Source of the DNA: Georgenia thermotolerans
Lineage (GTDB): Bacteria > Actinomycetota > Actinomycetes > Actinomycetales > Actinomycetaceae
NCBI RefSeq assembly: GCF_009193185.1
Contig: NZ_VUKF01000040.1
Coordinates: 1-45,677, forward strand
Length of the DNA: 45,677 bases
Reading direction: 5' to 3'
In this document: positions 13,004 to 35,776 of the stretch, piece after piece
Layout: the number at the start of each line of letters is the position of its first letter
Numbering within the stretch: the first letter of the stretch is position 1
Made by a program: the position numbers and the translations under genes
The notes under the pieces: generated by a model
What the model was told of the DNA's origin: nothing
Database searches by the model: none
What the model saw: the letters and a program-made list of their open reading frames with translations, nothing else

Positions 13004-13654
13004 TCAGACCACCTCGGCCAGCCACCGCTCCAGCGCCGCCCGGATCGCCGCGTGATCCTTGCCGAGACTGTGGTCGCCGTCGACGACGACCACCTCCCGG
13101 TCCGGTCCCGCGGGCGGGACGCCGAACGGGTCGCGCGCGCCCTGGACGACGAGCGCGGGCACCCCTGCGCCGTCGAGCTCGGGCAGTCGGCTGGGCCGGT
13201 CGGCCTTGCCCGGCGGGCGCAGCGGGAAGGCCAGGCACAGCACCGCGACCGCGCCCACCGCGCCGGCCGTCCGGCACGCCACGCGCGCGCCCGAGGAGCG
13301 CCCGCCGGCGACGAGCGGCAGCCCGGCGAGGTCGGTCTCGCGCAGGTGCGCCGCGACGGCCGTCCAGGCGGCGTCGAGCTGCCGGGCCGGGGCCGGCGCC
13401 CGGCGCCCCGCCACCCGGTAGGGCTGCTCGACGAGCGCGACGCTCAGGCCCGCCGCCAGCGCCACGTCCGCGGCGAGCACCAGGTCCTTCGCGGTGACGC
13501 CGCCCCCGGCGCCGTGGCCGAGCATGATCGCCGCCCGCGGCGCGGCCGCCCGGCGCAGGTGCACCCGTGCCGGGCCGTGCGGGGTGGCCACCTCGCGGAC
13601 CAGGGTCCCGGAGACCGATGTCCCGTCCCCGGCGACCGGGGTGTCGTCCGTCAT
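13004..13654 (-). CDS. Alpha/beta hydrolase, KANL3/Tex30-like
   Basis: A 216-aa hydrolase with GHGAGGG (oxyanion region), GGRSSGAR (nucleophile elbow, Ser in GRSSG), QGARDPFG (Asp) and DGDHSLGK (His), a complete catalytic triad. The size and the GHGAGGG/GGRSxG pattern match the small dienelactone-hydrolase-like KANL3/Tex30 group. The substrate is unknown. ATG 13654 overlaps the stop of the upstream adenylate-forming enzyme as ATGA. It is the last gene of the pnuC-nadR-MoxR unit. The partner relation with the PaaK-like ligase (thioester or ester making and breaking) is only inferred from adjacency. Confidence 0.85.
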   Translation of the reverse strand: MTDDTPVAGDGTSVSGTLVREVATPHGPARVHLRRAAAPRAAIMLGHGAGGGVTAKDLVLAADVALAAGLSVALVEQPYRVAGRRAPAPARQLDAAWTAVAAHLRETDLAGLPLVAGGRSSGARVACRTAGAVGAVAVLCLAFPLRPPGKADRPSRLPELDGAGVPALVVQGARDPFGVPPAGPDREVVVVDGDHSLGKDHAAIRAALERWLAEVV

Positions 13655-15072
13655 GCCGTCCCTCCCGGCAGGTCGCTGGAGAACCGGCGCGGCTTGCCCG
13701 GTCCGAGCTCGTCCGGCGAGGCCAGCACCCGCAGCGCCAGGTCGCGCCCGAGCAGCCGGCGCAGGCTCTTCCGCGCCCCGTCGGCGTCGCCGCCGAGCAG
13801 GTCGAGGCGCAGCGCGCCGGCGGCGTCCTGGTGCAGCTGCCAGGCGCGGGCGCCGTGGGCCTGCAGCAGCTGGGTGGCGCTGACGGCGTCGACCCAGGTG
13901 CCGTCGTCGTGCCGGAACCGCACCGGCGCCCGGCCCTCGAGGGCGTGCAGCGCGCCGTCGGCACCGAGGACGGCCGTGTCGCCGGTGCGGTAGCGCAGCA
14001 GCGGCAGGTAGGGGTTCTCGTCGGCGGTGACCACCACCTCCCCGCGCCCGCCCACCGGCACCGGGGCGCCGTCGGCGTCGAGGACCTCCACGTGCACGCG
14101 GCGGGGGAGCAGCCGGTGCGGCTCCCCGGCGGCGCCGGACGCGGCCAGCGGCCCGGCCTCCACCAGCCCGTAGACGTCGAGGACCGGGGCGGCCCATCGC
14201 TCCTCGAGGACGGCGCGGGTGGCCGGGGCCAGCGCCGTCGCGCCGCTGACCACCGCCAGGGGACGCAGGTCCACGTCGAGCTCGGCGAGACGGAGGAGGG
14301 CGAGCGGGGTGGAGGTGATGACCTGCGGGTCCGCCCAGGCGAGGTAGGCCTCCCGGTCCCCGGCGCGCCGCCAGCCGGCGGGGTGGAGGGTGATCCGGGC
14401 CATCGCGGCCTGCTCGAAGGCGGAGAGGACCGATCCGTACGTGAACGCCGTCTCCTGGGCCACGACGCTGAGGACGGCCACACGGGCCGGGTCGGGCCGC
14501 CAGGTGCGCCCGGCCCCGGTCACGAGCCGGCGCAGCTGGACCAGGTCGGCGGCCACGGTGACGGGGTGCTGCGGGAGCACCACGGCCGCGCCCGTGCTGC
14601 CCGAGCTCGTCCCGGCGATGGCGTCGGCCAGCGGGACGTCCAGGGGCACGAAGTCGGCCAGCGCCCGGGCCAGGTGCGCCCGGGAGATCGGCGGGACCTC
14701 GGCCAGCGGGGGCGGCGCGCCGCGCCAGCGGCGCCGGTAGTGCGGGACCGTCCGGGCGGCGCGGGCCAGCAGCTCGTCCACCCACTCGGGGGCTGCCGCC
14801 CCGGCGGCCGGTGCGGGGGCGGCGGCGATGTCGTCGTGCAGCCGGTCCAGGCGGGCGACGTCGCCGGCCGTGAGCCGGTCGCCGCAGGCGTGCACCCAGG
14901 CTGGCGCGCGGGGGTGCTCGCGCACGGCGGTCAGGCGGGCGGCGCCGGCGGCGGTGAGGGTGGGCCACCGCTCGGCGTCGGTGAGCGCGGCGTCGGCGAA
15001 GGGGGTGTACTCGGCGAGCACCGGGTCGAGCCGGGGCTCCGCCGGCCGCTCAGGTGCCGGCCGCTCAGACAT
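13651..15072 (-). CDS. PaaK-like adenylate-forming enzyme (acyl-CoA ligase superfamily)
   Basis: A 473-aa product of the ANL superfamily, nearest in layout to phenylacetate-CoA ligase/CapK proteins. The N-terminus has ARTVPHYRRRW (a PaaK-like mark). The P-loop A3 motif is GTSSGSTGAAVV, A5 is VYGLVEAG, A7 is LRYRTGDTAV, and a C-terminal GKPRRF supplies a possible catalytic lysine. It should activate a carboxylate with ATP; the acyl substrate and acceptor are unknown, and no carrier protein gene is nearby. The ATG at 15072 overlaps the upstream stop by 8 nt (ATGTCTGA), and its own stop overlaps the hydrolase start by 4 nt. Finding such an enzyme behind a MoxR/VWA pair is unusual. Confidence 0.8.
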   Translation of the reverse strand: MSERPAPERPAEPRLDPVLAEYTPFADAALTDAERWPTLTAAGAARLTAVREHPRAPAWVHACGDRLTAGDVARLDRLHDDIAAAPAPAAGAAAPEWVDELLARAARTVPHYRRRWRGAPPPLAEVPPISRAHLARALADFVPLDVPLADAIAGTSSGSTGAAVVLPQHPVTVAADLVQLRRLVTGAGRTWRPDPARVAVLSVVAQETAFTYGSVLSAFEQAAMARITLHPAGWRRAGDREAYLAWADPQVITSTPLALLRLAELDVDLRPLAVVSGATALAPATRAVLEERWAAPVLDVYGLVEAGPLAASGAAGEPHRLLPRRVHVEVLDADGAPVPVGGRGEVVVTADENPYLPLLRYRTGDTAVLGADGALHALEGRAPVRFRHDDGTWVDAVSATQLLQAHGARAWQLHQDAAGALRLDLLGGDADGARKSLRRLLGRDLALRVLASPDELGPGKPRRFSSDLPGGTA

Positions 15073-15652
15073 AGGTCACCCGCATCGCGGCCTCCCGCGC
15101 GCGGCGCTCGGCGAGCTGGCGGGCGAGCTCCTGCGCCCGGCGCTGCTCCTCCACCATCTCGGCCAGGGCGGCGGCGAGCCCGGCGCTGCTCAGCGCGGCG
15201 AGGCGGTCCGCGGCCACCGCCGCCGACTCCCCGGCGGGACGCAGCCCGAGCAGGTCCAGCAGCACCCGGGCGGCCTCCTCGCGGGCGCGGGGGTCGGCCT
15301 GCCAGTCCCGGGGGCTGACGTGGGCGCCGAGCACCCGGACCATGCGCTCGACCACCTCGTGCAGCGCCGCCGGGTCGAGGCGGCCGCGCCACGGCCGCAG
15401 GCTGGGGGCGTGCAGCACCGCCAGGGTCACGGCGACGGCCTCGCGCTGCACCGGGCCGGTGGCCGGCGCGGAGAGGTCCGGCGTGGGACGGGTGCCCGGG
15501 GCGGCGAGGTCGGCGAGCGAGTCCTCCCACAGGGCGACCACGTCGAGGCCCGGGTCCCACACGTCGGGGGAGACGGCGGCGAGGTCGCGCATGAGCGAGC
15601 CCAGCGGCGGCCCCTCGGGGCCGGGCCGGTCCCCGGCTGGCCGGTCCGTCAT
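15065..15652 (-). CDS. Hypothetical 195-aa protein of the MoxR/VWA unit
   Basis: No family was recognised. The product is Ala/Arg/Leu-rich and predicted mostly helical. The middle contains RPWRGRLDPAALHEVVERMVRVLGAHVSPRDW, and the C-terminus (EMVEEQRRAQELARQLAERRAREAAM) looks like a short coiled coil. There is no signal peptide or membrane segment. The ATG at 15652 overlaps the stop of the VWA/metallopeptidase gene (ATGA), and the 3' end overlaps the ligase start by 8 nt, so all three are probably co-translated. It may be an adaptor of the ATPase/VWA pair; this is inference from position. Confidence 0.75.
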   Translation of the reverse strand: MTDRPAGDRPGPEGPPLGSLMRDLAAVSPDVWDPGLDVVALWEDSLADLAAPGTRPTPDLSAPATGPVQREAVAVTLAVLHAPSLRPWRGRLDPAALHEVVERMVRVLGAHVSPRDWQADPRAREEAARVLLDLLGLRPAGESAAVAADRLAALSSAGLAAALAEMVEEQRRAQELARQLAERRAREAAMRVTYV

Positions 15653-17556
15653 CGTCCTGCTCCCGTCACGTCCCACATCCGCGCGGCGAACGCACGCGCG
15701 AAGTCCACCAGATCCTCCCAATCCGCCACGCGGTGCACCGCGTAGGGCGCCGCCATCTCGCGGATGCGCGCCACCATGTCCGCGGAGGTCTGCAGCACGA
15801 GCGTGCCACCCCCGCCCGCCGCGGCGAGGGCGTCGACGGCCACGCCCGCCGTGCGGAACATCGTGTCCACCCCGGCGTCGGAGATCACCGCGATGTGGCA
15901 CGGGCGGCGGTCGGGGTCGACCGGGTGGCGGGGGTCCGCGCGCCGGTGCGGCTCCGGGCGGTCGGTGGGGTGCCCGCCGTCGTCGCCGGTGCGCGGCGGG
16001 TGGGCCGCGGCCAGGTGCTCGAGGGGGAAGGAGGTGCCGCCGCCGAAGTGGGCGACGACGGCGGCGAGCACGTCGTCCGACCGCTCGGTGAACCCGTCGG
16101 TGCCGGCGACCTGGTCCGGGCCGCTCCACGTCGTCGCCCGCACCCGGGCGCCGGCCCGCAGCGCCGAGAGCGCCAGCACCGTCCCGGCGAGGGCGAGCGG
16201 GGACCGTATCGAGCACGGGTCGGGGATGGACCCCGAGGAGTCGAGGTAGAGGTCCAGGTCGACCGGCTCACGGCCCGGCTCGGCCGGGTCGTCCTCCTCC
16301 ACCACCCGGCGCACGAGCGTGAACCCCGGCACCGGCCGGGGCCCCGCGGCCAGGCTGGCCGGCCAGTCGATCGCGGCGAGGTCGTCACCGGCGTCCCACG
16401 TCTCCAGGCCGCCCAGGAGGGGCTCGGGGGTGACCGGGCGGGCCAGCGTGGGGAACGGCACCAGGTAGGGGGCGGCGTTCTCGCGGTACCAGGCCGCCGC
16501 GGCCCGCGCGGGGTCGCTCTGGACGCCCAGCTCGGCGAGCACGGCGGCGTACTCGGCCGGGTCGATGCCGTGGGGGTGGTCGGTGGGCGACCAGGCGCCG
16601 GAGGTGGCGCCGTCGTCTCCCGTGGGCGTCCCCACGGTTCTGCCCGGCGTCGCGCTCCCGTCCGGGTCCTGCTCGCCGGCGGGCGCCAGGCCGCGGACCA
16701 CCCGCGGATCCAGGGCGGGGTGAACCGCGGGCGCGGCGAGGGTGGGGTCGCTGGCCAGCCCGGGCACCGCTCCGCCGTCCGCCGGGGCGTGCGCGCACAC
16801 CACGGCGGCGGCCCCCGCCAGCGGGGCCTCCCCGCCGCGGTCGGCCAGCAGCTGGCGCACGAGCGCGCCGAAGCCGCCGACCCCGCCGACCGGGTCGTCG
16901 GCATACGCCCGCACGGCCCGGGCGCACAGCTGCGCCTCCCGCTCCGGGACGGCGGCGTCGGGGCACGTCAGGGTGCCGGCGGGCAGCGCCCAGAGCAGCT
17001 CGTCGGTGCGCATGACCAGCTGCATGACGACGTCGTCGGGGTGCGGTGGGCCGATCGCGCGCCAGACGGAGCCCATGCGCAGCTCGGCGCGCCGCTGCAG
17101 GCGGTCGTTGATCAGCAGGTCCGACCACAGGTTCGCGACGACCGGGGCGAGGTCGACCCGGTCGACGAGCCCGGCCCGGGCGCGGACCAGCAGCCGGCCG
17201 GCCGTGGCGAGGTCGCCGGGGGAGAGGACGTGGTGGCCGATCTCGTGGGCGAGCACCTCCACCGGCAGGCCGGCCAGGCCCAGCGCCCGGGCCTGCTCGA
17301 GGTCGACGAAGACCTCCACGTCGCGGGTGGAGAACCAGGCGAAGGAGGCGACGTCGGCGGGCACGTCCGCCGGGCCGACCAGGTGCGGGGCGCGCAGGCG
17401 CAGGTGGCGGCCCCACGCGGCCAGGGCCCGCGGCCAGGCGGTGAGCCAGCGCTGGCGCAGGGCGTCGGTGGCCGCGTGGTCGGCGGCCCCGGGGTCGGCC
17501 GGCGCGGGGTCGAAGCCCCGCCGGTGGGCGTTGCTCGTGGACCGGGCCGCGCTCAT
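15649..17556 (-). CDS. DUF2201-like putative metallopeptidase with VWA-like domain
   Basis: A 635-aa two-domain protein. The N-terminal part carries EVLAHEIGHHVLSPGD (HExxH zinc motif, ~residues 103-107), matching the putative metallopeptidase region of DUF2201 proteins. A variable Pro/Gly/Asp linker (~300-400) follows. The C-terminal ~200 residues are VWA-like, with a MIDAS DLYLDSSGSIPD (Asp at ~439), a conserved GGGTSFPLEHL and a late VISDAGVD. Such proteins are typically encoded beside MoxR-type AAA+ ATPases, as here, and are thought to act with them as chaperone or metal-insertion pairs. ATG 17556 overlaps the previous stop as ATGA. Whether the peptidase is active is unknown. Confidence 0.85.
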   Translation of the reverse strand: MSAARSTSNAHRRGFDPAPADPGAADHAATDALRQRWLTAWPRALAAWGRHLRLRAPHLVGPADVPADVASFAWFSTRDVEVFVDLEQARALGLAGLPVEVLAHEIGHHVLSPGDLATAGRLLVRARAGLVDRVDLAPVVANLWSDLLINDRLQRRAELRMGSVWRAIGPPHPDDVVMQLVMRTDELLWALPAGTLTCPDAAVPEREAQLCARAVRAYADDPVGGVGGFGALVRQLLADRGGEAPLAGAAAVVCAHAPADGGAVPGLASDPTLAAPAVHPALDPRVVRGLAPAGEQDPDGSATPGRTVGTPTGDDGATSGAWSPTDHPHGIDPAEYAAVLAELGVQSDPARAAAAWYRENAAPYLVPFPTLARPVTPEPLLGGLETWDAGDDLAAIDWPASLAAGPRPVPGFTLVRRVVEEDDPAEPGREPVDLDLYLDSSGSIPDPCSIRSPLALAGTVLALSALRAGARVRATTWSGPDQVAGTDGFTERSDDVLAAVVAHFGGGTSFPLEHLAAAHPPRTGDDGGHPTDRPEPHRRADPRHPVDPDRRPCHIAVISDAGVDTMFRTAGVAVDALAAAGGGGTLVLQTSADMVARIREMAAPYAVHRVADWEDLVDFARAFAARMWDVTGAGR

Positions 17557-18482
17557 GCGCCCGTCCCGACGTGCAGGCAGTACGACCGGGGCGTGGTCCA
17601 GGCCCGCACCCCGCGGGCGGCGAGCCCCCGCTCGTCGAGGAACCACGCGCGGGCGAGGTCCTCGGCCGCGCGGGTGGGCCGCACGGACCAGCCGTGGCGG
17701 TCGGCCCGCACGAGCCACCACCGGGTGGCGGGGTCGGACGCCACGGTGGCGCCGCCGTCGTGCGGGGCGGCCGGGGTGCGCACGAGCCAGCGCACGCCGT
17801 CGCCGCCGACGAGGTCGGGCACGCGGACCCACGGCCCACCGAAGCCGCGGAAGCCACCTACGCGCCAGGTCCCCGGGCCTTCGCCCGGCCACCACCACGG
17901 CTCGCGGGCGTGGCGCTCCAGGGCGGCGCGCGCGTCGGTCGGGGCGTCCAGGCCGAGCACCGCGGCCAGCGCGGCGGCCGGCACGCGAGGCGCGGCGCCG
18001 AGGGCGGCGGCGCGCCACATCACGGCGCCGGAGCGCCAGGCGGCCAGGGCGGCAAGGTCCCGCAGGTGCCGGGCGTCGCCCGCGGCGTGGAGGGCGTCGG
18101 TGAGGCGACCGGCCCAGGCGGCCAGGTCGACCTGGCCGCGCAGCCGCGTGGCGGCGGTGAGGAGGTCGTCGAGCAGCGGGGAGACCTCGGCGGGCAGGAC
18201 CCGGGCGAGGCGCGGGACGATCGCGAGGACCACCCACCGCGTCAGCGACCGCTCGTCCCACCCGCGGGGGCACGCGCCGCACACGCGGGCGAACAGGTCC
18301 GCCGCCACCGCCGCGACCACCCGGTCGGGCAGCCCCTGGGCGGCGAGGGCGTCGACGACGGCACCGGCCTCGCCCAGCGCCCGGTGCAGCACGTCCCGCC
18401 GCGCGCCCGCGGCCTGCGCGCGGCGCAGCAGGGCCGCGCGGTCCACCCGGTGCGCGAGGACGTCCGCGCGCCAGCGGCTCAC
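17553..18482 (-). CDS. Hypothetical 309-aa protein between MoxR and VWA genes
   Basis: Not recognised. GTG 18482 is chosen because it overlaps the MoxR stop as GTGA; an in-frame GTG 9 nt upstream is also possible. The N-terminal ~190 residues are helical and Ala/Leu/Arg-rich (ALLRRAQAAGARRDVLHRAL and similar), reminiscent of helical-repeat scaffolds. The C-terminal ~110 residues have more Trp and Gly (PWWWPGEGPGTWRVGGFRGF, TRWWLVRADRHGWSV) and look like a beta-rich domain. No catalytic motif, signal peptide or transmembrane helix is apparent. Its place between a MoxR ATPase and its VWA partner suggests a bridging subunit. Confidence 0.75.
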   Translation of the reverse strand: MSRWRADVLAHRVDRAALLRRAQAAGARRDVLHRALGEAGAVVDALAAQGLPDRVVAAVAADLFARVCGACPRGWDERSLTRWVVLAIVPRLARVLPAEVSPLLDDLLTAATRLRGQVDLAAWAGRLTDALHAAGDARHLRDLAALAAWRSGAVMWRAAALGAAPRVPAAALAAVLGLDAPTDARAALERHAREPWWWPGEGPGTWRVGGFRGFGGPWVRVPDLVGGDGVRWLVRTPAAPHDGGATVASDPATRWWLVRADRHGWSVRPTRAAEDLARAWFLDERGLAARGVRAWTTPRSYCLHVGTGA

Positions 18483-20065
18483 CGGCTCCACTGCAGCCAG
18501 GTGAGGTAGTTGGTGTACCGCTGGTGGGCGTACTTCAGCGCCAGCGCGTCGTCGTAGAGGTGGCCGTAGAGCTTGCGCGCCTGGCCCCACCCGTCCAGCA
18601 CCTGCTCGATGCGGGCCATCCGGGCCCGGACCGTGGCCGCGTCGACGCCGTCGAGCCCGGCGTGCAGCTCGCCGAGGATCTCGGCGACGACGTCGTCGCG
18701 GTCCAGCCCGGCGACGTCGTACTGCGCGCAGGCGGTGTCGAAGATGTCGCGCAGCCAGGAGATGCGGTCCGTGCGCAGCGGCGCCCGGCCCTCGTCCTCG
18801 AACGCCGGGGCGCGCAGGTCCGGGGCGACCTTGTCGTGCAGGACGAAGGGCAGCACGGCGCGCACGTCGTCCAGCCCGACGGCGGGCCGGCCGCGGAAGA
18901 ACGCCATGGCCTTGGCGTAGGCGACGAGGGACTGCAGGGCCCGCACCGACAGGCCGTTGAGGGTGGAGGAGCCGACGTCGGACAGCCGGTCCCGGCCGGT
19001 GTCCTGGGCGGCGATGTGGTGCACGTCCGCGCCGGCCAGGCGGGCGGTGTCCTTGGTGCGGTACTCGAACTGGTCGCCGGCCCGCTCGAGGAGCTCCAGC
19101 TGGGAGGCGAAGAACTCGATCCGGCGGCGGACCTCCGCGGGCAGCGGCAGCGCGGTGATCGCGGCGTGCACGGCGGCGTGCTCCTCGGCGGTGAAGACGA
19201 TCTCCGGCGGGACCGCCTCCTCGGGGCGCAGCCGGCGCTCGGCCCGCTCGACCAGCTCGCCCAGGAAGCGGGAGTTGAACGGCAGGGCGTGGACGATGAC
19301 GTCGATGCGGTCGCGCAGGGCCTCGACCACCTGGTAGGTGCCGCCGCCGGCGTCGTCGTTGGCGGTGAGGTACCACGCCGAGGCGCCGGTCTCGTAGATC
19401 TGGTCGTAGACCTCGACGTAGCCGTCCGCCAGCACCGTCAGCAGCGCCGACTGGGTGCGGGTGGGGATGCGGTTGTACTCGTCGACGATCTTCACGCGCA
19501 TGCCGAGCCAGGAGCGCCAGGCGACGTCGACGTCGGCCAGCGAGTCGGCGCTGACGAGGTCCTTGGGCAGCGGGGTGCCGAAGAGGTCGGTCACCGTCAG
19601 CTGGGGGTGGCCGTGCTGCATGGCCCGGCGCACCTCCCGGACGGGGTAGCCGGCCAGGACGCCCATGAGGATGGCCGAGGCGGTCTTGCCGCGACCCGGC
19701 CCGCCCAGGAGCAGGCAGCGGCCGCGGACGGCGAAGGTCAGCAGCGGCAGGAGGACGAAGCTGGAGTAGGACTGCGCCGTCGGCAGCCGCAGCTCCGCCC
19801 GGGAGTCGCCGAGCCGGAAGACCCGCCCGGCCGCCTCGGCGTCGAACTCGACGTCGTAGTGCGGGGAGATGATCGCGTGGTTGACGATCCAGAAGTAGGC
19901 CTGGCGCAGCTTCTCGTCCAGCCCGGTGCCGGCGCCGGGGCTGGGGGCGGCGGCCAGCGGCCGGAAGAGGTCCTCGACCTCGAGCTCGCCGCCGGCGGCC
20001 GGGGACGGCGTGGGCAGGGTGGGCGAGGCGGAGACGTGGCGGAGCGGGTCGGTCGGTGCGGTCAC
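18479..20065 (-). CDS. MoxR/RavA-type AAA+ ATPase
   Basis: A 528-aa MoxR-like ATPase. Walker A is GGPGRGKT (~121-128), Walker B IVDEYNRIPT (~193-202), and a sensor-1 region reads YLTANDD. A long alpha-helical C-terminus (~330-528) ends with GHLYDDALALKYAHQRYTNYL, a region that in related proteins precedes or contacts the VWA partner. MoxR ATPases remodel or activate target complexes, often through a VWA-protein adaptor. GTG 20065 overlaps the nadR stop (GTGA). The VWA partner lies two genes downstream in the same overlapping chain. Family firm, target unknown. Confidence 0.9.
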   Translation of the reverse strand: MTAPTDPLRHVSASPTLPTPSPAAGGELEVEDLFRPLAAAPSPGAGTGLDEKLRQAYFWIVNHAIISPHYDVEFDAEAAGRVFRLGDSRAELRLPTAQSYSSFVLLPLLTFAVRGRCLLLGGPGRGKTASAILMGVLAGYPVREVRRAMQHGHPQLTVTDLFGTPLPKDLVSADSLADVDVAWRSWLGMRVKIVDEYNRIPTRTQSALLTVLADGYVEVYDQIYETGASAWYLTANDDAGGGTYQVVEALRDRIDVIVHALPFNSRFLGELVERAERRLRPEEAVPPEIVFTAEEHAAVHAAITALPLPAEVRRRIEFFASQLELLERAGDQFEYRTKDTARLAGADVHHIAAQDTGRDRLSDVGSSTLNGLSVRALQSLVAYAKAMAFFRGRPAVGLDDVRAVLPFVLHDKVAPDLRAPAFEDEGRAPLRTDRISWLRDIFDTACAQYDVAGLDRDDVVAEILGELHAGLDGVDAATVRARMARIEQVLDGWGQARKLYGHLYDDALALKYAHQRYTNYLTWLQWSR

Positions 20066-21147
20066 GCGCCCACTCTTCCGGACGGGGCCGCCGCGATGTG
20101 GTCGGCACGCGCGGCGGAGTGCACCTCCGTGCCGGCCTGGGGCAGCGGGTCCGCCAGCCGGCGCCCGTGCGGCAGGGCGTCGATGAGCGCCGCCGCGCGG
20201 GCGAGCCGCTGTGCGGGGGTGCCGCGGACCTCGTGCCAGGGCACGCCGGCGGCGTCCAGCACCGCGCGGAACCGGGCGGTCATGGCGGGGCGCACGTGCT
20301 CGCCGTCGCGCAGGCCGTCCTGGACGAAGGGGATCTCGTCCCCGGTGAGCAGGTACAGGTCCGGGCGCCGGCGGGCGGCCAGCGCGGCGACGGTGGGGGA
20401 TGCGGTGCCGACGTAGCGCTCGTGCCAGACCGTGGTGGCGAGCACGTCGGTGTCGGCCACGAGCAGCGGGCGCGGGGTGCGCGCGGCGGCGTCGTCCTCG
20501 AGGCGCGCCTGCTCGCGGGCGATCAGGTCGAACTCGGCGGTGTGCCAGGGGCGGGACAGGCCGCCGGGGCGGATCTCGCTCCAGGTGCGTCCGTACTCGG
20601 GCACCTCGGGGGTGCCGTAGCGGGCGGCGAGGGCCCGGGCGAGGGTGGTCGTCCCGGTCGACTCCGCGCCCACGACGACCACCCGGGTGCACAGGTAGGC
20701 GCGCACCGGCGCCGGCAGCGCCCACCAGTGCCGGCCGGGATCGGCGCGCACCGCGGTGCCCGACACCGGGGTGGCGGCGCGCCCGGGGTCGACCTGCACC
20801 CAGGCGGCGCCGAGGCGGTCGGCCATCTCGACGCCGTAGCCGTCGCCGGTGAGCACGGCGTCGACGGGGGCGTCCAGCAGCGCGGTGATGATCGCCAGGT
20901 GGGCACGCCAGGCGGCGTCGGAGCCGTAGTCGACCGGGGCGTCGTCCAGGGCGTGGACGACGCGGGCCTGGGGCACCTCGGCGCGGACCCACTCGGCGCG
21001 CACCTCGGCCGGGACCGACTCCACGCTCGAGCCGAGCACCTGCACCGTCAGCCGGTCGCACAGCCGCAGGCCCGCCCGCAGGAGGTTCAGGTGCCCGGCG
21101 TGCAACGGGTAGAACTTGCCGACCACGAGGCCGTGGGCGTACCTCAC
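20062..21147 (-). CDS. nadR: NadR-type NMN adenylyltransferase / nicotinamide riboside kinase
   Basis: A 361-aa bifunctional enzyme expected to phosphorylate nicotinamide riboside to NMN and adenylate NMN to NAD. The N-terminal nucleotidyltransferase domain has GKFYPLHAGH (HxGH, residues 16-19) and VSGTAVRADP. The C-terminal kinase domain starts near 155 with VVVVGAESTGTTTLARAL, then VPEYGRTWSEI, and DLYLLTGDEIPFVQDGLRDG. The Walker A lysine position holds threonine (GAESTGTT, Thr ~166). There is no N-terminal HTH, unlike the E. coli regulator NadR. GTG 21147 overlaps the pnuC stop as GTGA. A ~35-residue C-terminal tail is low complexity. Confidence 0.92.
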   Translation of the reverse strand: MRYAHGLVVGKFYPLHAGHLNLLRAGLRLCDRLTVQVLGSSVESVPAEVRAEWVRAEVPQARVVHALDDAPVDYGSDAAWRAHLAIITALLDAPVDAVLTGDGYGVEMADRLGAAWVQVDPGRAATPVSGTAVRADPGRHWWALPAPVRAYLCTRVVVVGAESTGTTTLARALAARYGTPEVPEYGRTWSEIRPGGLSRPWHTAEFDLIAREQARLEDDAAARTPRPLLVADTDVLATTVWHERYVGTASPTVAALAARRRPDLYLLTGDEIPFVQDGLRDGEHVRPAMTARFRAVLDAAGVPWHEVRGTPAQRLARAAALIDALPHGRRLADPLPQAGTEVHSAARADHIAAAPSGRVGA

Positions 21148-21782
21148 GGCGCGGGCACCTGAGCCGAGGGCGCCGCTCCCGCGGGGGCCGACGGCGCCGT
21201 CTCCGAGCCTGGCCGACCCATCGCCGGGGCGGGCGCGAGCGCCGCCTTCCAGTCACGGACACCGACGGCGCACAGCAGCAGGTAGCCGACGTAGAGCACT
21301 GCGGTCAGCCACAACCCCTGCGAGGCGTACAGCCCGACGAGCAGCACGTCGGTCGCGATCCACACCGCCCAGCTGCCCAGCCACTTGCGGCCGAGCATCA
21401 CCTGCGCGACGACGGAGGTCGCCGTCGTCAGCGAGTCCCACCACGGCACGGTCGAGTCCGTCCACGCGCCCAGGGCGGCGGCGCCGGTGACCGTCAGTGC
21501 GACGGTGACGCCGGCGGCGGCGGGCCATGCCCAGCGCGGGGTGCGCCTGACGTGCAGCCGCGCGCCGTCGGCGCCGTGCAGCCACCAGTACCAGCCGAGC
21601 ACGCCGAGGACGGCGAAGAGGACCTGGAGGGCGGCGTTGGCATAGAGACCGGCGGCGGTGAAGAGCGCGGCGAAGACCGCGTTGTTGGCGAGGCCGACGG
21701 GGAACGTCCACACGTTCTGCCGCACGGCCAGCCAGACACAGAGGGCGCCGGTGACGAAGCCGAGCAGCTCGGTCGGGTTCAC
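21144..21782 (-). CDS. pnuC: Nicotinamide riboside transporter PnuC
   Basis: A 212-aa integral membrane protein with about seven hydrophobic segments. PnuC marks are the VWTFPVGLANN segment near residue 24 and the WTDSTVPWWDSLTTATSVVAQ and KWLGSWAVWIATDVL segments, which line the nicotinamide riboside site in the family. PnuC is a facilitator; trapping depends on phosphorylation by the kinase of the next gene, nadR, which overlaps by 4 nt. GTG 21782 is the first codon of a probable leaderless mRNA (TAACCT, 6 nt upstream). A 30-residue Pro/Ala-rich cytoplasmic tail ends the protein. Confidence 0.95.
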   Translation of the reverse strand: MNPTELLGFVTGALCVWLAVRQNVWTFPVGLANNAVFAALFTAAGLYANAALQVLFAVLGVLGWYWWLHGADGARLHVRRTPRWAWPAAAGVTVALTVTGAAALGAWTDSTVPWWDSLTTATSVVAQVMLGRKWLGSWAVWIATDVLLVGLYASQGLWLTAVLYVGYLLLCAVGVRDWKAALAPAPAMGRPGSETAPSAPAGAAPSAQVPAP

Positions 21783-21788
21783 GCGGCG

Positions 21789-21794
21789 AGGTTA
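21789..21794 (-). promoter_or_regulatory. Leaderless-type -10 box for pnuC operon
   Basis: On the minus strand TAACCT is followed by six bases (CGCCGC) and the GTG start of pnuC. This is the spacing expected when transcription begins on the start codon. No ribosome binding site is present. The -35 region is not recognisable. It would drive all eight genes down to the alpha/beta hydrolase. Confidence 0.65.
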
Positions 21795-21892
21795 GCCGAG
21801 CGGGCCGGGCGGGCCGGGGACGGGTCCGCGCGCTGTCAGGCGGCGCGTCCGCGCGCCGTGCGTCGACGGGGGCCGGGGGCCGGGGCAAGATC

Positions 21893-21908
21893 TGGCAACT
21901 GGTTGCCA
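21893..21908. promoter_or_regulatory. Perfect palindrome, candidate operator
   Basis: TGGCAAC, spacer TG, GTTGCCA, in the 293-nt divergent gap between pnuC (-) and the GH3 gene (+). It is 111 nt from pnuC and 168 nt from GH3. It is more AT-rich than its surroundings and looks like a dimeric repressor site. No regulator gene is adjacent. The rest of the gap shows the pnuC -10 box, short GC runs and the GH3 ribosome binding site. Confidence 0.6.
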
Positions 21909-22075
21909 TGTGGGTGGCGCACGTCTCAGGGTGACGTCCACTGGGATTTACCTGGGAGCCGACCGGATGGCCGTGGCGTCGTCGCCGCTGACCGACGGAC
22001 GGCGTCAGTTTCGTGGTACGGGGGCACCGCGAGAGGGCTGCCCGGCCACTCGTCGAGGTCGAGGGAGACCAGCAC

Positions 22076-31327: not shown

Positions 31328-32206
31328 GTGACGAACGACTGGCGGGCCGCGGCCGAGGCGGCCGCCGCGCAGCTGCGCGACCGGCTCGGGCTCGACGACG
31401 TGGCCGCCGGCGTGGTCCTCGGCTCCGGCTGGGGCCCGCTCACCGCGGGCTGGGGCGCGCCCGTGGCCGCGGTGCCGACGGCGCAGGTGGCGCACTTCCG
31501 CGCCCCGGTCGCCCCCGGCCACGACGGCCGCATCCTCCGCTTCGACCTGCCCGGTCCCGACGGCGAGGCGCGCCCGGTGGTCGCGCTGGCCGGCCGGACG
31601 CACCTGTACGAGGGGCACGGGCCGGGCGCCGTCGCCCACGGCGTGCGCACCCTGGCCGCCCTCGGCGCCGGCACGGTGGTGCTCACCAACGCCAACGGCT
31701 CGCTGCGCCCCGAGTGGCCGCTGGGCCGCGTCGTCGCGCTGACCGACCACCTCAACCTCACCGGCGTCTCGCCGCTCGAGGGCGCCAGCTTCGTCGACCT
31801 CACCGCCGCCTACGACCCCGACCTGCGCGCGGGACTCCTGGCCGCCGCCGCGGAGGACGGCGTCGAGCTGGCCACCGGCGTCTACGCCATGCTCGCCGGC
31901 CCGCACTACGAGACCGCCGCCGAGGCCGGCATGGTGCGGGCGCTGGGCGCCGACGTCCTCGGCATGTCCACCGTGCTGGAGGCCATCGCCGCCCGCGAGG
32001 CCGGCCTGCGGGTCCTCGCGCTGTCCACGGTGACGGCGCACGAGGCCTCCGGCGAGCAGATCGACCCCGACGAGGTCGTCGCCGTCGCGGAGGCCGCCGC
32101 GGGGCGCCTGTCGCCGGCCGTGCGCCGCGTCCTCGCCGGCCTTCCCCCCTCCCACCCCCACGTCCCGGCCCCCTCCGTCGCCGGGAGCAAGGAGACGACG
32201 TCGTGA
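31328..32206 (+). CDS. Purine nucleoside phosphorylase (trimeric PNP type)
   Basis: The enzyme splits inosine/guanosine-type nucleosides with phosphate into base and ribose-1-phosphate. The 292-aa product has VVLGSGWGPL (phosphate loop), LAGRTHLYEGHGP, LTNANGSLRPEWPLG (base site; a trimeric PNP shows NAAGG- or NANGSL-type loops here) and GPHYETAAEAGMVRALGADVLGMSTVLE. GTG 31328 follows a leaderless -10. The 3' end overlaps the NCS1 permease start as GTGA. The permease, glycohydrolase and sugar kinase following suggest import and breakdown of a nucleoside. Confidence 0.93.
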   Translation: MTNDWRAAAEAAAAQLRDRLGLDDVAAGVVLGSGWGPLTAGWGAPVAAVPTAQVAHFRAPVAPGHDGRILRFDLPGPDGEARPVVALAGRTHLYEGHGPGAVAHGVRTLAALGAGTVVLTNANGSLRPEWPLGRVVALTDHLNLTGVSPLEGASFVDLTAAYDPDLRAGLLAAAAEDGVELATGVYAMLAGPHYETAAEAGMVRALGADVLGMSTVLEAIAAREAGLRVLALSTVTAHEASGEQIDPDEVVAVAEAAAGRLSPAVRRVLAGLPPSHPHVPAPSVAGSKETTS

Positions 32207-33690
32207 CCGACCGGACGCTCAGCCAGGAGGGCCCGAGCTCGGCCTTCACCATCGAGGCCACCGGCATCGAGGTGATCGCCGACGCGGACCGCAAGGGCCG
32301 CCCCGCCTCCCTCTTCTGGCCCTGGTTCGCCGCGAACATCTCGGTGTTCGGCATCAGCTACGGCTCGTGGATCCTCGACTTCGGCATCTCCTTCGCCCAG
32401 GCGACCCTGGTCGCCGTCGTCGGCACGGTGCTGTCCTTCCTCCTCGTCGGGATCATCGCGCTCGCCGGCAAGCGCGGCTCCGCCCCGACCCTGACCCTGT
32501 CCCGGGCGGCGTTCGGCGTGCGCGGCAACCTCCTGCCCGGCGTCGTGTCGTACCTGCTGCTCGTGGGCTGGGAGATCGTGCTCGTCGCCCTCGCCACGCT
32601 CGCCACCGACACCGTCATCCAGCAGCTGGGCTGGTCCGGCGGGAACACCGCCCGGATCATCGCCTTCCTCGTGGTCATCGCGATCGTCGTCGGCGCCGGG
32701 ATCCTCGGCTTCGACATGATCATGCGGGTCCAGACGGTCCTGACGATCGTCCTGGGCGTAGTCACCCTGGGCTACATCGCCCTGACCGTCGACCAGATCG
32801 ACCTCGCCGCCCTGGGGCAGCTGCCCGCCGGGTCGTGGGAGGCGGTGCTCGGCGCGCTCATGCTCGTCATGACGGCGCTGGGGCTGGGCTGGGTCAACGC
32901 CGCGGCCGACTACTCGCGCTACCTGCCCCGGGCGGCCTCCTCCGGCGGCGTCGTCTTCTGGACGACGTTCGGCGCCTCCCTGGCGCCGGTCGTCCTCATC
33001 GTCTACGGCCTCCTGCTGGTCGGGTCCAACCCCGACCTCTCGGCGGGCATCTCCAGCGACCCGATCGGCACGCTCGCCACGCTCCTGCCCACCTGGTACC
33101 TCGTCCCGTTCGTCCTGGTGGCCGTCGGCGGGCTGGTCTCCGGTGCCGTGCTGGACATCTACTCCTCCGGCCTGACGCTCCTCGCCGTCGGCGTGCGGGT
33201 GCCGCGGTGGGTCGCCGCGGCCATCGACGGGCTGCTCATGGTGGTCGGCACGATCGTCATCGTGTGGTTCGCCGCGGACTTCTTCGGCCCCTTCCAGGGC
33301 TTCCTCATCACCCTCGGCGTCCCGATCGCGGCGTGGGCCGGCATCTTCATCGGCGACCTGCTGCTGCGCCGCCGCGACTACGACACCTTCTCCCTGTTCG
33401 ACGCCCGCGGCGTCTACGGGGCGGTGAACTGGCTCAACGTCGTCGGCATGCTCGCGCTCACCGCCATCGGCTGGGGGCTGGTGACCAACGGCGTCCAGGG
33501 GCTGACCTGGCAGGGCTACCTCTTCGGCCCGCTCGGCCTCGACGTCGACACCTGGGGCTTCTCCGGGGTCGGCGTGGCCGTCGCGCTGTTCGGCGGGCTG
33601 GTTGTCGGGCTGGCGAACGCCGGGCGCATCCGCCGCCAGGAGGCGGCCACGGTCACGGCGCCCGAGCCGGCGGTCGTGGCGGGCGAGTGA
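32203..33690 (+). CDS. NCS1-family purine/cytosine permease
   Basis: A 495-aa polytopic membrane protein with about 12 hydrophobic helices. The start region SLFWPWFAANISVFGISYGSW and the helix with LTLSRAAFGVRGNLLPG match the nucleobase:cation symporter-1 family. ALGLGWVNAAADYSRYLPR is the conserved helix 6-type segment. The imported compound is probably a purine, pyrimidine or nucleoside; specificity cannot be read. GTG 32203 overlaps the PNP stop and is preceded by AAGGAGACG. Its stop overlaps the glycohydrolase start as GTGA. Confidence 0.93.
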   Translation: MTDRTLSQEGPSSAFTIEATGIEVIADADRKGRPASLFWPWFAANISVFGISYGSWILDFGISFAQATLVAVVGTVLSFLLVGIIALAGKRGSAPTLTLSRAAFGVRGNLLPGVVSYLLLVGWEIVLVALATLATDTVIQQLGWSGGNTARIIAFLVVIAIVVGAGILGFDMIMRVQTVLTIVLGVVTLGYIALTVDQIDLAALGQLPAGSWEAVLGALMLVMTALGLGWVNAAADYSRYLPRAASSGGVVFWTTFGASLAPVVLIVYGLLLVGSNPDLSAGISSDPIGTLATLLPTWYLVPFVLVAVGGLVSGAVLDIYSSGLTLLAVGVRVPRWVAAAIDGLLMVVGTIVIVWFAADFFGPFQGFLITLGVPIAAWAGIFIGDLLLRRRDYDTFSLFDARGVYGAVNWLNVVGMLALTAIGWGLVTNGVQGLTWQGYLFGPLGLDVDTWGFSGVGVAVALFGGLVVGLANAGRIRRQEAATVTAPEPAVVAGE

Positions 33691-34748
33691 GCGCCCCGAC
33701 CACCCGCGACCGCGCCCGCGGCGCCCTGTGGGGGCTGGCCGTCGGCGACGCCCTCGGCATGCCGGCCGAGGGGCTGCCCCGCGCGCTCGTGGCCCAGCGG
33801 TACGGGCTCATCGACCGGTTCCACCCCGGGCACGCCGAGGACAACGAGATCGCCGGTGACCTGCCCGCCGGGCACGTCACCGACGACACCGACCAGGCCG
33901 TCATCGTCGGCCGTCTCCTGGTCGACGGCGCGGGCCGGGTGGACGCCACCGAGCTGGCCGAGCGGCTGCTCGCCTGGCAGGAGCGCATGCGCGCGGCGGG
34001 CGCGGCCAGCCTGCTGGGCCCGTCGACGCTGCGGGCGCTGCAGCACATCCGCACCCACGGGCCCTCGCCGACCTCGGGACGCTGGGGCGACACCAACGGC
34101 GCCGCCATGCGCATCGCCCCGGTCGGCGTCGCCACGGCGGCCCGCCCGCTGCAGGTGCTCGTCGACCGCGTCGTCGCCGTGAGCGAGCCGACCCACAACA
34201 CCCACGTGGCCCTCGCCGGCGCCGCCGCCGTGGCCGCCGCCGTCGCCGTGGCGGTGGACGGCGCCGGCCTGCCCGAGGCGCTCGACGCGGCCACCGCCGC
34301 CGCCCGGTCGGGCGCCACCCGCGGGTTCTACACCGCGGCGCCCTCGCTCGCCGGCCGGCTCGAGTGCGCCGTGCGCCTCACCCTCGAGGCCGCCGAGGCG
34401 GCGTCCGGGGCCGGTGAGGCGGAGCAGGTCGAGGCCGGCTCGCGCGTCATCGACGAGGTCGTGGGCACCTCGCTGATCACCCAGGAGTCCGTGCCCGCCG
34501 CCTTCGCCGTGCTCGCGCTGGCCGACGCCGTGCGCCCCGGCGGGGCCGCCGACCCGTGGTGGGTGTGCCGCATCGCCGCGAGCCTGGGCGGGGACTGCGA
34601 CACCATCGCGGCGATGGCCGGGGCGGTGGCCGGCGCCCTGGGCGGGCGGCAGGCCCTGCCTGCCGAGGCGGTGGACACCGTGGCACGGCGCAACCCGACC
34701 CTCGACCTGGACACCCTCGCCGAGGACCTGCTGGAGCTGCGGAGGTGA
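33687..34748 (+). CDS. ADP-ribosylglycohydrolase family protein
   Basis: A 353-aa all-helical protein of the ARH/DraG family. Metal-site motifs are present: GALWGLAVGDALGMPAEG near the N-terminus, HVTDDTDQAV (~62-72), GRWGDTNGAAMRIAPVGV, VSEPTHNTHVA, and GGDCDTIAAMAGAVAGAL (~300-317). It should hydrolyse an N- or O-glycosidic bond of ADP-ribose or a ribosylated compound. Its position between an NCS1 permease and a PfkB kinase suggests a small ribosyl substrate rather than a modified protein, but this is inference. Both ends overlap neighbours as GTGA. Confidence 0.9.
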   Translation: MSAPTTRDRARGALWGLAVGDALGMPAEGLPRALVAQRYGLIDRFHPGHAEDNEIAGDLPAGHVTDDTDQAVIVGRLLVDGAGRVDATELAERLLAWQERMRAAGAASLLGPSTLRALQHIRTHGPSPTSGRWGDTNGAAMRIAPVGVATAARPLQVLVDRVVAVSEPTHNTHVALAGAAAVAAAVAVAVDGAGLPEALDAATAAARSGATRGFYTAAPSLAGRLECAVRLTLEAAEAASGAGEAEQVEAGSRVIDEVVGTSLITQESVPAAFAVLALADAVRPGGAADPWWVCRIAASLGGDCDTIAAMAGAVAGALGGRQALPAEAVDTVARRNPTLDLDTLAEDLLELRR

Positions 34749-34807
34749 GCCCGGCGGACGAGGCGGTGAGCCCGGCGGACGAGGCGGTGGGCCCGGCGGG
34801 CGACCCG
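34745..34807 (+). repeat. 21-bp tandem repeats at the PfkB gene start
   Basis: Two identical 21-bp units (34745-34765, 34766-34786) and a degenerate third (34787-34807). Each intact unit begins GTGAGCCCGGCGGACG and encodes VSPADEA. The duplication doubles the GTG start codon, so two equivalent starts exist. Confidence 0.9.
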
Positions 34808-35776
34808 CCGGGTGCCGCGCCGGCGCCGCGGCTGGTCTCCACCGGCTCGGTCGTGGTGGACCTGCCGCTGCTGGTGCCCGGTCTGCCCGCCCGCGGCGGC
34901 GACGTGCTGGCGACGACGGCCGGCCCGGCGCCGGGCGGGGGGTTCAACGTCGTCGCCGCCGCGGCGCGGCAGGGCGCCCGGGTGGCCGTGGCCAGCCCGG
35001 TGGGCACCGGCCCGAACGGCGACCTCGTGCGCGCCGCGCTGCGTGCGGAGGGCGTGGAGGTGCTCACCGCACCGGCGCCGGGGGACACCGGCGTCGTCGT
35101 CGCCCTCGTCGAGCCCGACGGCGAGCGCACCTTCGTCACGACCATCGGCGCCGAGGGGCGGCCCCGGGCCGCGGAGCTCGGCGCCGTGGCGCCGCGCCCC
35201 GGCGACCTCGTCTACGTCTCGGGATACGACCTCGTCTACCCCGACGCCGCGCCCGTCGTGGGCCCGTGGGCGGCCGCGCTGCCCGCCGGGGTGCGGCTGC
35301 TGCTCGACCCCAGCCCGCTGGCGGGCCTGATCCCGGCCGAGGTGCTCGACCCCGTGCTGGCGCGCTGCGACGTGCTCACCGTCAACGCCCAGGAGGCGGC
35401 GCACCTGGCCGGCAGCGAACCGGGGCGGGAGGACGGCAGGACCGGTCTGTGCTCGCGCGTGCCCGCCAGGTGCGCGGTGCTCGTGCGGCTGGGCGTGGCC
35501 GGGTGCTGGGTGCGCGAGCCCGGCGGCGGGGGCAGCCTCGTGCCCTCCCGGCCCGTGCGCCCGGTGGACACCACCGGGGCCGGCGACGTGCACACCGGGG
35601 TCCTCGCCGCCGGCCTCCTCGCCGGCACGCCGCTGCTGGAGGCGGTGCGCCGCGCCAACGCCGCCGCCGCGATCGCCGTCACCCGCGTCGGGGGCGGGGC
35701 GGCGCCGACCCGCGCCGAGCTCGAGGCGGTGCTCGGGGCACGTGATGCGGGCCGCCGGCGGCGGTCGGGCACGTGA
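34745..35776 (+). CDS. PfkB/ribokinase-family carbohydrate kinase
   Basis: A 343-aa sugar or nucleoside kinase. The N-terminal core begins RLVSTGSVVVDLPLLVPGLPARGGD, with the GGGFNVVAAAARQGARV substrate loop. The C-terminal signature PVDTTGAGDVHTGVLAAGLL (~274-293) contains the catalytic Asp; the usual Ala/Phe after GAGD is Val/His here. It should phosphorylate the sugar released by the upstream enzymes. GTG 34745 overlaps the glycohydrolase stop as GTGA; the GTG at 34766 is an alternative because of the 21-bp duplication. A hairpin follows the stop. Confidence 0.88.
   Translation: MSPADEAVSPADEAVGPAGDPPGAAPAPRLVSTGSVVVDLPLLVPGLPARGGDVLATTAGPAPGGGFNVVAAAARQGARVAVASPVGTGPNGDLVRAALRAEGVEVLTAPAPGDTGVVVALVEPDGERTFVTTIGAEGRPRAAELGAVAPRPGDLVYVSGYDLVYPDAAPVVGPWAAALPAGVRLLLDPSPLAGLIPAEVLDPVLARCDVLTVNAQEAAHLAGSEPGREDGRTGLCSRVPARCAVLVRLGVAGCWVREPGGGGSLVPSRPVRPVDTTGAGDVHTGVLAAGLLAGTPLLEAVRRANAAAAIAVTRVGGGAAPTRAELEAVLGARDAGRRRRSGT

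Follow-up and report, generated by a model that had tools for sequence, protein, structure and literature searches.

On contig NZ_VUKF01000040.1 of Georgenia thermotolerans, a 45,677-nucleotide window (the whole stretch of DNA analyzed here) carries a minus-strand run of genes that joins nicotinamide adenine dinucleotide (NAD) salvage to a MoxR-type AAA+ ATPase and a VWA-domain protein. Judging from its recurrence in other genomes, the first seven genes of the run form a conserved functional system rather than a chance succession. The run opens with pnuC, encoding a nicotinamide riboside transporter of 212 amino acids (aa) (positions 21144 to 21782; TIGR01528 and PF04973), and a nadR-like gene for a nicotinamide mononucleotide adenylyltransferase/nicotinamide riboside kinase of 361 aa (20062 to 21147; AAA_28, 105 bits). 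These are followed by the MoxR-type ATPase (528 aa; 18479 to 20065; AAA_lid_2 and Walker motifs), a 309-aa protein without a family, here called U309 (17553 to 18482; predicted helical and beta domains), and a 635-aa protein combining a putative HExxH metallopeptidase domain with a VWA domain that bears a metal ion-dependent adhesion site (MIDAS) (15649 to 17556). The last two genes encode U195, a 195-aa ligase partner that is predicted to be helical with a long C-terminal helix (15065 to 15652), and a PaaK-like adenylating enzyme of 473 aa that exceeds the PF00501 cutoff (13651 to 15072).

An alignment-based scan with MoxR recovered 303 relatives; the counts of loci given below rest on the best 80 of these 303, and phyla were read from the record titles. 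MoxR, U309, the VWA protein, U195, and the PaaK-like ligase make up a five-gene core, all of which is present in 67 of the 80 loci, distributed over ten phyla by record title, and most of the incomplete cores reach a contig edge. With cross-phylum profiles, we recognized U309 in 78 loci, the VWA protein in 70, U195 in 68, the ligase in 67, nadR in 47, and pnuC in 44. The frequencies of U309 and U195 bear out the original prediction, made from the window alone, that these two proteins are specific to the system. MoxR identity among the best 80 relatives is 60 to 82% within Actinomycetota and 57 to 64% elsewhere, and carriage of this MoxR on mobile elements was rejected, as searches of plasmids at E < 1e-40 and of phages at E < 1e-10 gave no homologue. 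The gene order is more than chance, because the same order recurs in other genomes.

Within the window's order, U309 matches 13 of 396 genomes. MoxR, U309, the VWA protein, U195, and the ligase follow one another in that order in all 12 of the loci outside the window, and in 10 of these 12 Micrococcales relatives, pnuC and nadR lie upstream of the core, with intervening genes between nadR and MoxR in 3 of the 10. None of the 8 congeners has U309 or the VWA protein; among 39 relatives, each of the two proteins was found in only 2, the window's genome counted. The best E values for all seven genes point to four genomes of a single genus in another family, and both MoxR and NadR of the window group with Occultella among the named loci (Shimodaira-Hasegawa-like approximate likelihood ratio test [SH-aLRT], 100; the trees were built quickly, with SH-aLRT support only). 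Because no congener has a copy and the closest matches lie in a genus of another family, these comparisons suggest that the seven genes were transferred as a unit. When a Micrococcales VWA alignment was run against a phylum sample, 18 of 396 genomes matched at E ≤ 0.001, strongly in the window's genome and one other; the other 16 matches were weak (E, 1e-26 to 1e-31) and represent distant VWA relatives.

Several loci show additional genes or unusual records. Three Oerskovia-type loci (L021, L035, and L036) have a gene of 930 to 940 aa between nadR and MoxR, which in L021 encodes a P-type cation ATPase. A proline racemase gene lies between U309 and the VWA gene in a Chloroflexi locus (L094, 12823 to 13875), and a weak, sub-cutoff nucleoside-deoxyribosyltransferase-like gene separates MoxR from U309 in a planctomycete (L102, 1837 to 2832). 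Two verrucomicrobial loci (L073 and L077) have nearly identical MoxR proteins; L073, from a metagenome-assembled genome (MAG), shows no U195, PaaK-like, pnuC, or nadR gene and has an AAA_14/DUF4143 gene after the VWA gene. The locus titled Rhodococcus rhodnii (L053), which we placed with the Pseudonocardiales, has a MoxR very near that of Kibdelosporangium aridum, and its record may be mislabeled.

We investigated how the core is associated with the NAD genes. One or both of pnuC and nadR are present in 48 of the 80 loci, in three main arrangements (upstream on the same strand, downstream on the same strand, or divergent), which agrees with the predicted joining of this pair to the MoxR/VWA/ligase cassette. 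The upstream arrangement is found in 25 of 25 Micrococcales and 2 of 14 Pseudomonadota. The downstream arrangement occurs in 6 of 9 Verrucomicrobiota, 7 of 14 Pseudomonadota, 1 of 5 Chloroflexota, a single Acidobacterium, KSB1, and a Geobacteraceae MAG. Divergent genes are seen in 3 of 4 Planctomycetes, and in one Chloroflexi they lie within a longer run. No NAD genes were found nearby in Acidimicrobiia (2 loci), Cyanobacteriota (2), Gemmatimonadota (1), 4 loci without a phylum, 3 Verrucomicrobiota, 5 Pseudomonadota, 3 Chloroflexota, and 1 planctomycete. A link peculiar to a single lineage, which would have refuted the original prediction, is not what these neighborhoods show, since it recurs across Micrococcales, Verrucomicrobiota, Pseudomonadota, Planctomycetota, Chloroflexota, and others.

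Many loci without nearby NAD genes still have nadR elsewhere in the genome. We searched the genomes of 18 of the 32 loci lacking NAD genes, and 16 of the 18 contain nadR away from the locus (14 over both domains and 2 over the kinase half only). pnuC is present in 14 of the 15 stretches around nadR located away from the core, and in one genome (L066) pnuC-nadR lies farther along the same contig as the core. Background rates of nadR come from two groups, the order of the window and the Verrucomicrobiota, and nadR is uncommon in both. In the order, 27 of 396 genomes have nadR at E ≤ 1e-30, namely, 11 of the 13 U309 genomes versus 16 of the 383 others (P = 1e-12 by Fisher's test, with relatedness ignored); by genus, the proportions are 7 of 8 versus 9 of 102 (P = 3e-6, again with relatedness ignored). 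Of the 16 genomes of the order that have nadR but gave no match to U309, we inspected 7; MoxR, the VWA protein, U195, and the ligase are present in 2 (with U309 recognized in one of these two loci) and not in the other 5. Among 145 Verrucomicrobiota, 18 have nadR at E ≤ 1e-30, of full length in 7 including the centre genome of the set, and the VWA protein occurs in the centre genome only.

The phylogenies offer a further view of this association. In two loci (L085 and L089), MoxR falls inside Pseudomonadota, but nadR is on the actinobacterial side of a 99% split; at least two nadR lineages have therefore come to adjoin the core. The presence and absence of NAD genes require 14 changes on the MoxR tree, so these genes have evidently been gained and lost at the locus often. 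NadA, which marks the de novo route to NAD, was found in 21 of 22 cassette genomes, the window's included; bulk NAD supply would therefore not need pnuC-nadR, and the two genes look dedicated to the system. Alternatively, pnuC-nadR could be a hitchhiker, a pair that neighbors the core by descent without any shared function. Within Micrococcales, one clade has one arrangement, which would fit such a history, but the several arrangements seen overall, the two nadR clades, and the presence of nadR in 16 of 18 genomes that lack it in the locus do not, and we disfavor this explanation as very improbable.

The two salvage proteins themselves were characterized by profiles and motifs. The pnuC product scores 89.5 bits against TIGR01528 (cutoff, 42.45) and 166 bits against PF04973, scores from which its assignment as PnuC is certain. 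The nadR product reaches 174 bits against TIGR01526, under the equivalog cutoff of 341, and is best described as NadR-like; its HxGH motif is intact and is invariant in 25 aligned rows. In the kinase half, the Walker A lysine is replaced by threonine (GAESTGTTT). Across 65 NadR frames, among which some genomes were entered twice, this position is threonine or serine in 43 and lysine in 19, and the pattern could not be read in 3. The threonine/serine group comprises the Micrococcales NadRs together with those of L085 and L089, and all 19 lysines come from other phyla. Because core-free Micrococcales NadRs (L139 to L141 and L144) share the threonine, the replacement is a trait of the NadR lineage and not of the cassette. 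The window thus has the same two genes as NadR/PnuC nicotinamide riboside salvage, with an intact HxGH site, and differs in the coupling of the pair to a MoxR machine and in the threonine or serine at the Walker A lysine of Micrococcales NadRs, whether the core is present or not.

The MoxR protein of the window is a genuine member of its family: it scores 33.7 bits against AAA_lid_2 (cutoff, 22.7) and 26.5 bits against AAA_3, just below the cutoff of 27, and the motifs GGPGRGKT, VDE, and TAND are invariant across 10 aligned rows. Among solved structures, only 2r44 was found by sequence, as a weak relative. For the other core proteins, the alignments take in part of the homologues found (58 rows for U309, 56 for U195, 43 for the ligase, and 41 for the VWA protein). 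U309 of the window has no family match at E ≤ 0.1, and its 58 homologues have no Pfam family in common, with nine one-member matches at the same threshold. AlphaFold2 predicts a helical domain (residues 1 to 193) and a beta domain (205 to 307) for U309, with a predicted local distance difference test (pLDDT) score of 92.6 and a predicted template modeling (pTM) score of 0.89; the model resembles no PDB fold and no viral model at E ≤ 0.001. For U195, the prediction (pLDDT, 91.5; pTM, 0.81) is helical with a C-terminal helix of 39 residues, and it likewise has no PDB match at E ≤ 0.001. Structure prediction, which had been proposed for both proteins, therefore gave confident models but no solved fold.

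In the VWA/HExxH protein, residues H104, E105, G107, H108, N142, D146, and N150 are invariant in 41 sequences, as are D560 and the D439, S441, and S443 of the MIDAS motif (DxSxS), the motif that identifies the VWA domain. At E ≤ 0.1, VWA_2 matches 12 of the 41 homologues, the best of them with an E value of 3e-4, and does not match the window protein; the latter has no family over the cutoff, and no useful solved structure was found for the VWA alignment. The HExxH motif of the putative peptidase is invariant; Peptidase_M48 matches just 2 of the 41 members, and weakly. The protein had been described as DUF2201-like, a label that the profiles do not support: none of the 41 homologues matches a DUF2201 family at E ≤ 0.1, and DUF2201 membership (PF13203/PF09967) was rejected, as a search of the whole genome of the window with PF13203 stayed empty up to E ≤ 10. 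The pattern HExxH...N..D..IN is one that we presume to resemble DUF2201_N.

U195 has no family over the cutoff; of the weak Pfam matches among its 56 aligned members at E ≤ 0.1, the commonest is DUF4158, with 5 members. The ligase belongs to the AMP-binding superfamily (PF00501, 31.4 bits; cutoff, 29.9), with Y301, E305, Y361-R362-T363, D365, and G380-R381 invariant in 43 sequences and a C-terminal lysine in their consensus. Its closest solved relatives are phenylacetate-coenzyme A (CoA) ligases (E = 1.1e-20). PaaK identity was rejected (TIGR02155, 30 bits; cutoff, 646), and the best NCBIfam match, the DVU_1553 family, gave 57 bits against a cutoff of 300. The enzyme thus shares AMP-binding motifs with the PaaK- and DVU_1553-type AMP-dependent CoA ligases but scores far under both curated cutoffs and adjoins U195. 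Three loci (L069, L088, and L094) contain the genes for U195 and the ligase as a duplicated unit, and in L080 both genes are on the opposite strand, from which the two proteins act as a pair.

Tentatively, and with somewhat less than even confidence, we propose that the MoxR/VWA machine matures or switches an enzyme formed by the PaaK-like ligase and U195 that performs NAD-linked chemistry. The proposal builds on the observed conservation, gene order, catalytic motifs, nadR co-occurrence, two nadR clades, and U195-ligase pairing. MoxR would be the AAA+ motor, presumably a hexamer, with the VWA/HExxH protein as a substrate adaptor and putative metallopeptidase and U309 as a scaffold; together they would form a physical complex that acts as an ATP-driven remodeling machine. 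The original prediction had modeled a chaperone-protease complex that may mature or modify an NAD- or acyl-linked protein. We suggest such a machine because of the precedent of NorQ/NorD, a MoxR/VWA pair that is reported to carry out ATP-driven remodeling of its target and metal insertion into nitric oxide reductase (PMC13036017). Both systems have a MoxR-type AAA+ protein beside a VWA protein; here, the VWA protein also has HExxH, a third, scaffold-like subunit (U309) is present, and the ligase, U195, and the NAD genes stand in the place of a client oxidoreductase, which we did not recognize. Nor was a metalloenzyme client of the kind known for NorQD and CoxDE recognized beside the core.

The likeliest client of the proposed machine is the ligase with U195, to which the radical-SAM protein described below might be added in many nonactinobacterial loci. 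The machine would mature, metallate, or switch this client, which would then carry out acid adenylation within NAD- or nicotinamide-linked chemistry, in a reaction that may consume, make, or release a nicotinamide compound. PnuC and NadR could import and convert a nicotinamide precursor for the reaction or recycle a released product, and would not be there for the bulk supply of NAD. The client, its acid substrate, and the direction of the NAD link are inferred.

Several observations weigh against this proposal. The VWA protein has no match in 10 of the 80 loci, although most of these are at a contig edge, and three loci (L096, L097, and L107) have MoxR and U309 followed by approximately 9 kb without a VWA match. 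Because these three hold both genes without the VWA gene, MoxR and U309 may be the innermost pair. The link to NAD is also incomplete: all 11 Pseudonocardiales loci are without pnuC-nadR nearby, 2 of the 18 genomes searched (G812 and G814) have no nadR match, and within the order, nadR was not found at E ≤ 1e-30 in 2 of the 13 genomes that have U309. Finally, the absence of the Walker A lysine from the kinase half of Micrococcales NadRs would be odd if nicotinamide riboside phosphorylation were the purpose.

The combination of MoxR with a VWA protein also invites comparison with biological conflict systems. MoxR-vWA ternary systems with VMAP and iSTAND components have been described (PMC7159879), and they share with our core an AAA+ protein, a VWA protein, and an extra component; U309 or U195 could be the third component of such a defense system. 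The patchy distribution, with no copy in the eight congeners, is in line with this idea. However, PADLOC matched none of the eight proteins of the run, so that defense as judged by PADLOC was rejected, and the core differs from the ternary systems in its steady genes, its link to NAD salvage, and its lack of a swappable effector. A VMAP or iSTAND third component had no match in Pfam and PADLOC scans, in libraries whose inclusion of such profiles was unchecked. Gene content is steady across phyla, no swapped effector module appeared in the gene runs that we read, and the lack of MoxR homologues in plasmids and phages, at the thresholds given above, also counts against defense, which we consider highly doubtful.

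A radical-SAM protein is encoded in 21 of the 80 loci, all of them among the 42 nonactinobacterial loci and thus in half of these. It is located between the VWA protein and U195 in 14 loci and beside a second U195-ligase pair in 3. The protein resembles many SPASM-type maturases, and its first member is under the cutoff for its 25 best models. Its presence, together with the intact adenylation motifs of the ligase, could indicate the biosynthesis of a nicotinamide- or peptide-derived cofactor, in which the ligase would activate a carboxylate, the radical-SAM protein would modify it where present, the HExxH protein would trim a peptide, and MoxR/VWA would insert the metal or product into a target; NorQ/NorD (PMC13036017) provides a precedent for metal insertion in the last step. 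We regard this route as unlikely: we recognized neither a precursor peptide nor a target enzyme, although no systematic search for either was made, and at E ≤ 1e-30 the radical-SAM protein was not found in any of 24 cassette genomes lacking a copy at the locus (a set without a positive control). From the same 24 genomes and with the same lack of a positive control, the core would work without the radical-SAM protein, and we rejected the latter as an essential part, given also its absence from actinobacterial loci.

One locus connects the core to ADP-ribose. In a verrucomicrobial Limisphaerales MAG (L066, 4468 to 9964), a run of NAD/ADP-ribose genes leads on the same strand straight into MoxR; it encodes a Nudix-type protein (NrtR-like by eye), PARG, a cREC-ADP-ribosylglycohydrolase fusion, KptA/Tpt1, and two more ADP-ribosylglycohydrolases. 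KptA, cREC, and these hydrolases are parts of a described NAD+-ADP-ribose network (PMC9503650), and the same genome has pnuC-nadR on the contig of the core. The core might then be an NAD+-consuming or ADP-ribose-handling stress or RNA repair system, with pnuC-nadR refilling a drained NAD+ pool. The gene run is present in only 1 of the 80 loci, however, and profile scans showed no NADase or ADP-ribosyltransferase domain in the core proteins, making this explanation improbable. KptA occurs in 5 of 18 other cassette genomes, and KptA or RNA repair as a constant partner was rejected on that count. In the window itself, an overlapping plus-strand unit about 10 kb from pnuC (31328 to 35776) encodes a nucleoside phosphorylase, a purine/cytosine-type permease, an ADP-ribosylglycohydrolase, and a PfkB kinase and resembles a nucleoside or ADP-ribose salvage operon.

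The eighth gene of the run (13004 to 13654) encodes a KANL3/Tex30-like alpha/beta hydrolase that scores 85.8 bits against Abhydrolase_11 (PF20408; cutoff, 27). The original prediction had counted it as a member of the system; it was rejected as such, having no homologue in the 12 relatives of the order or the 80 MoxR loci. Other parts of the predicted layout are as described: all eight open reading frames were found on the minus strand (with a simple gene caller, so that gene starts are approximate), six junctions overlap by 4 nucleotides and one by 8, and the junction sequences in order are GTGA, GTGA, GTGA, ATGA, ATGA, the 8-nucleotide ATGTCTGA, and ATGA. The G+C content is 78% in the cassette and 75% in the window. 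The gap 5′ of pnuC spans 21783 to 22012; a single visible promoter had been claimed, which the promoter scan does not support, as it gave no sigma-70-like sites. Regarding the shared terminator, the scan detected no T-tailed terminators; a very strong hairpin does exist at the 3′ end, between convergent genes (−51 kcal/mol; z = −5.7), with no T run.

MoxR/VWA pairs are widespread, and for many the target is unknown. The kind of system described here, a MoxR/VWA machine, is a known one, and its gene composition appears to be new: in the open-license literature that we searched, no description of this gene set was found, nor were MoxR, PnuC, and NadR found together, which is weak evidence given the partial coverage. 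It is possible, if doubtful, that a system spread over about ten phyla couples an AAA+/VWA metalloprotease machine and two new protein families to nicotinamide-linked adenylation with import and conversion genes of its own. If true, this would be a new branch of NAD biology. The conserved context names candidate clients for a MoxR/VWA pair (an adenylating enzyme with its partner and, sometimes, a radical-SAM protein) as well as a metabolite class, nicotinamide/NAD, and it places the NAD salvage genes in a setting where a need for bulk NAD is unlikely to explain their retention. The questions of the client and of the role of NAD would thereby become testable in culturable bacteria.

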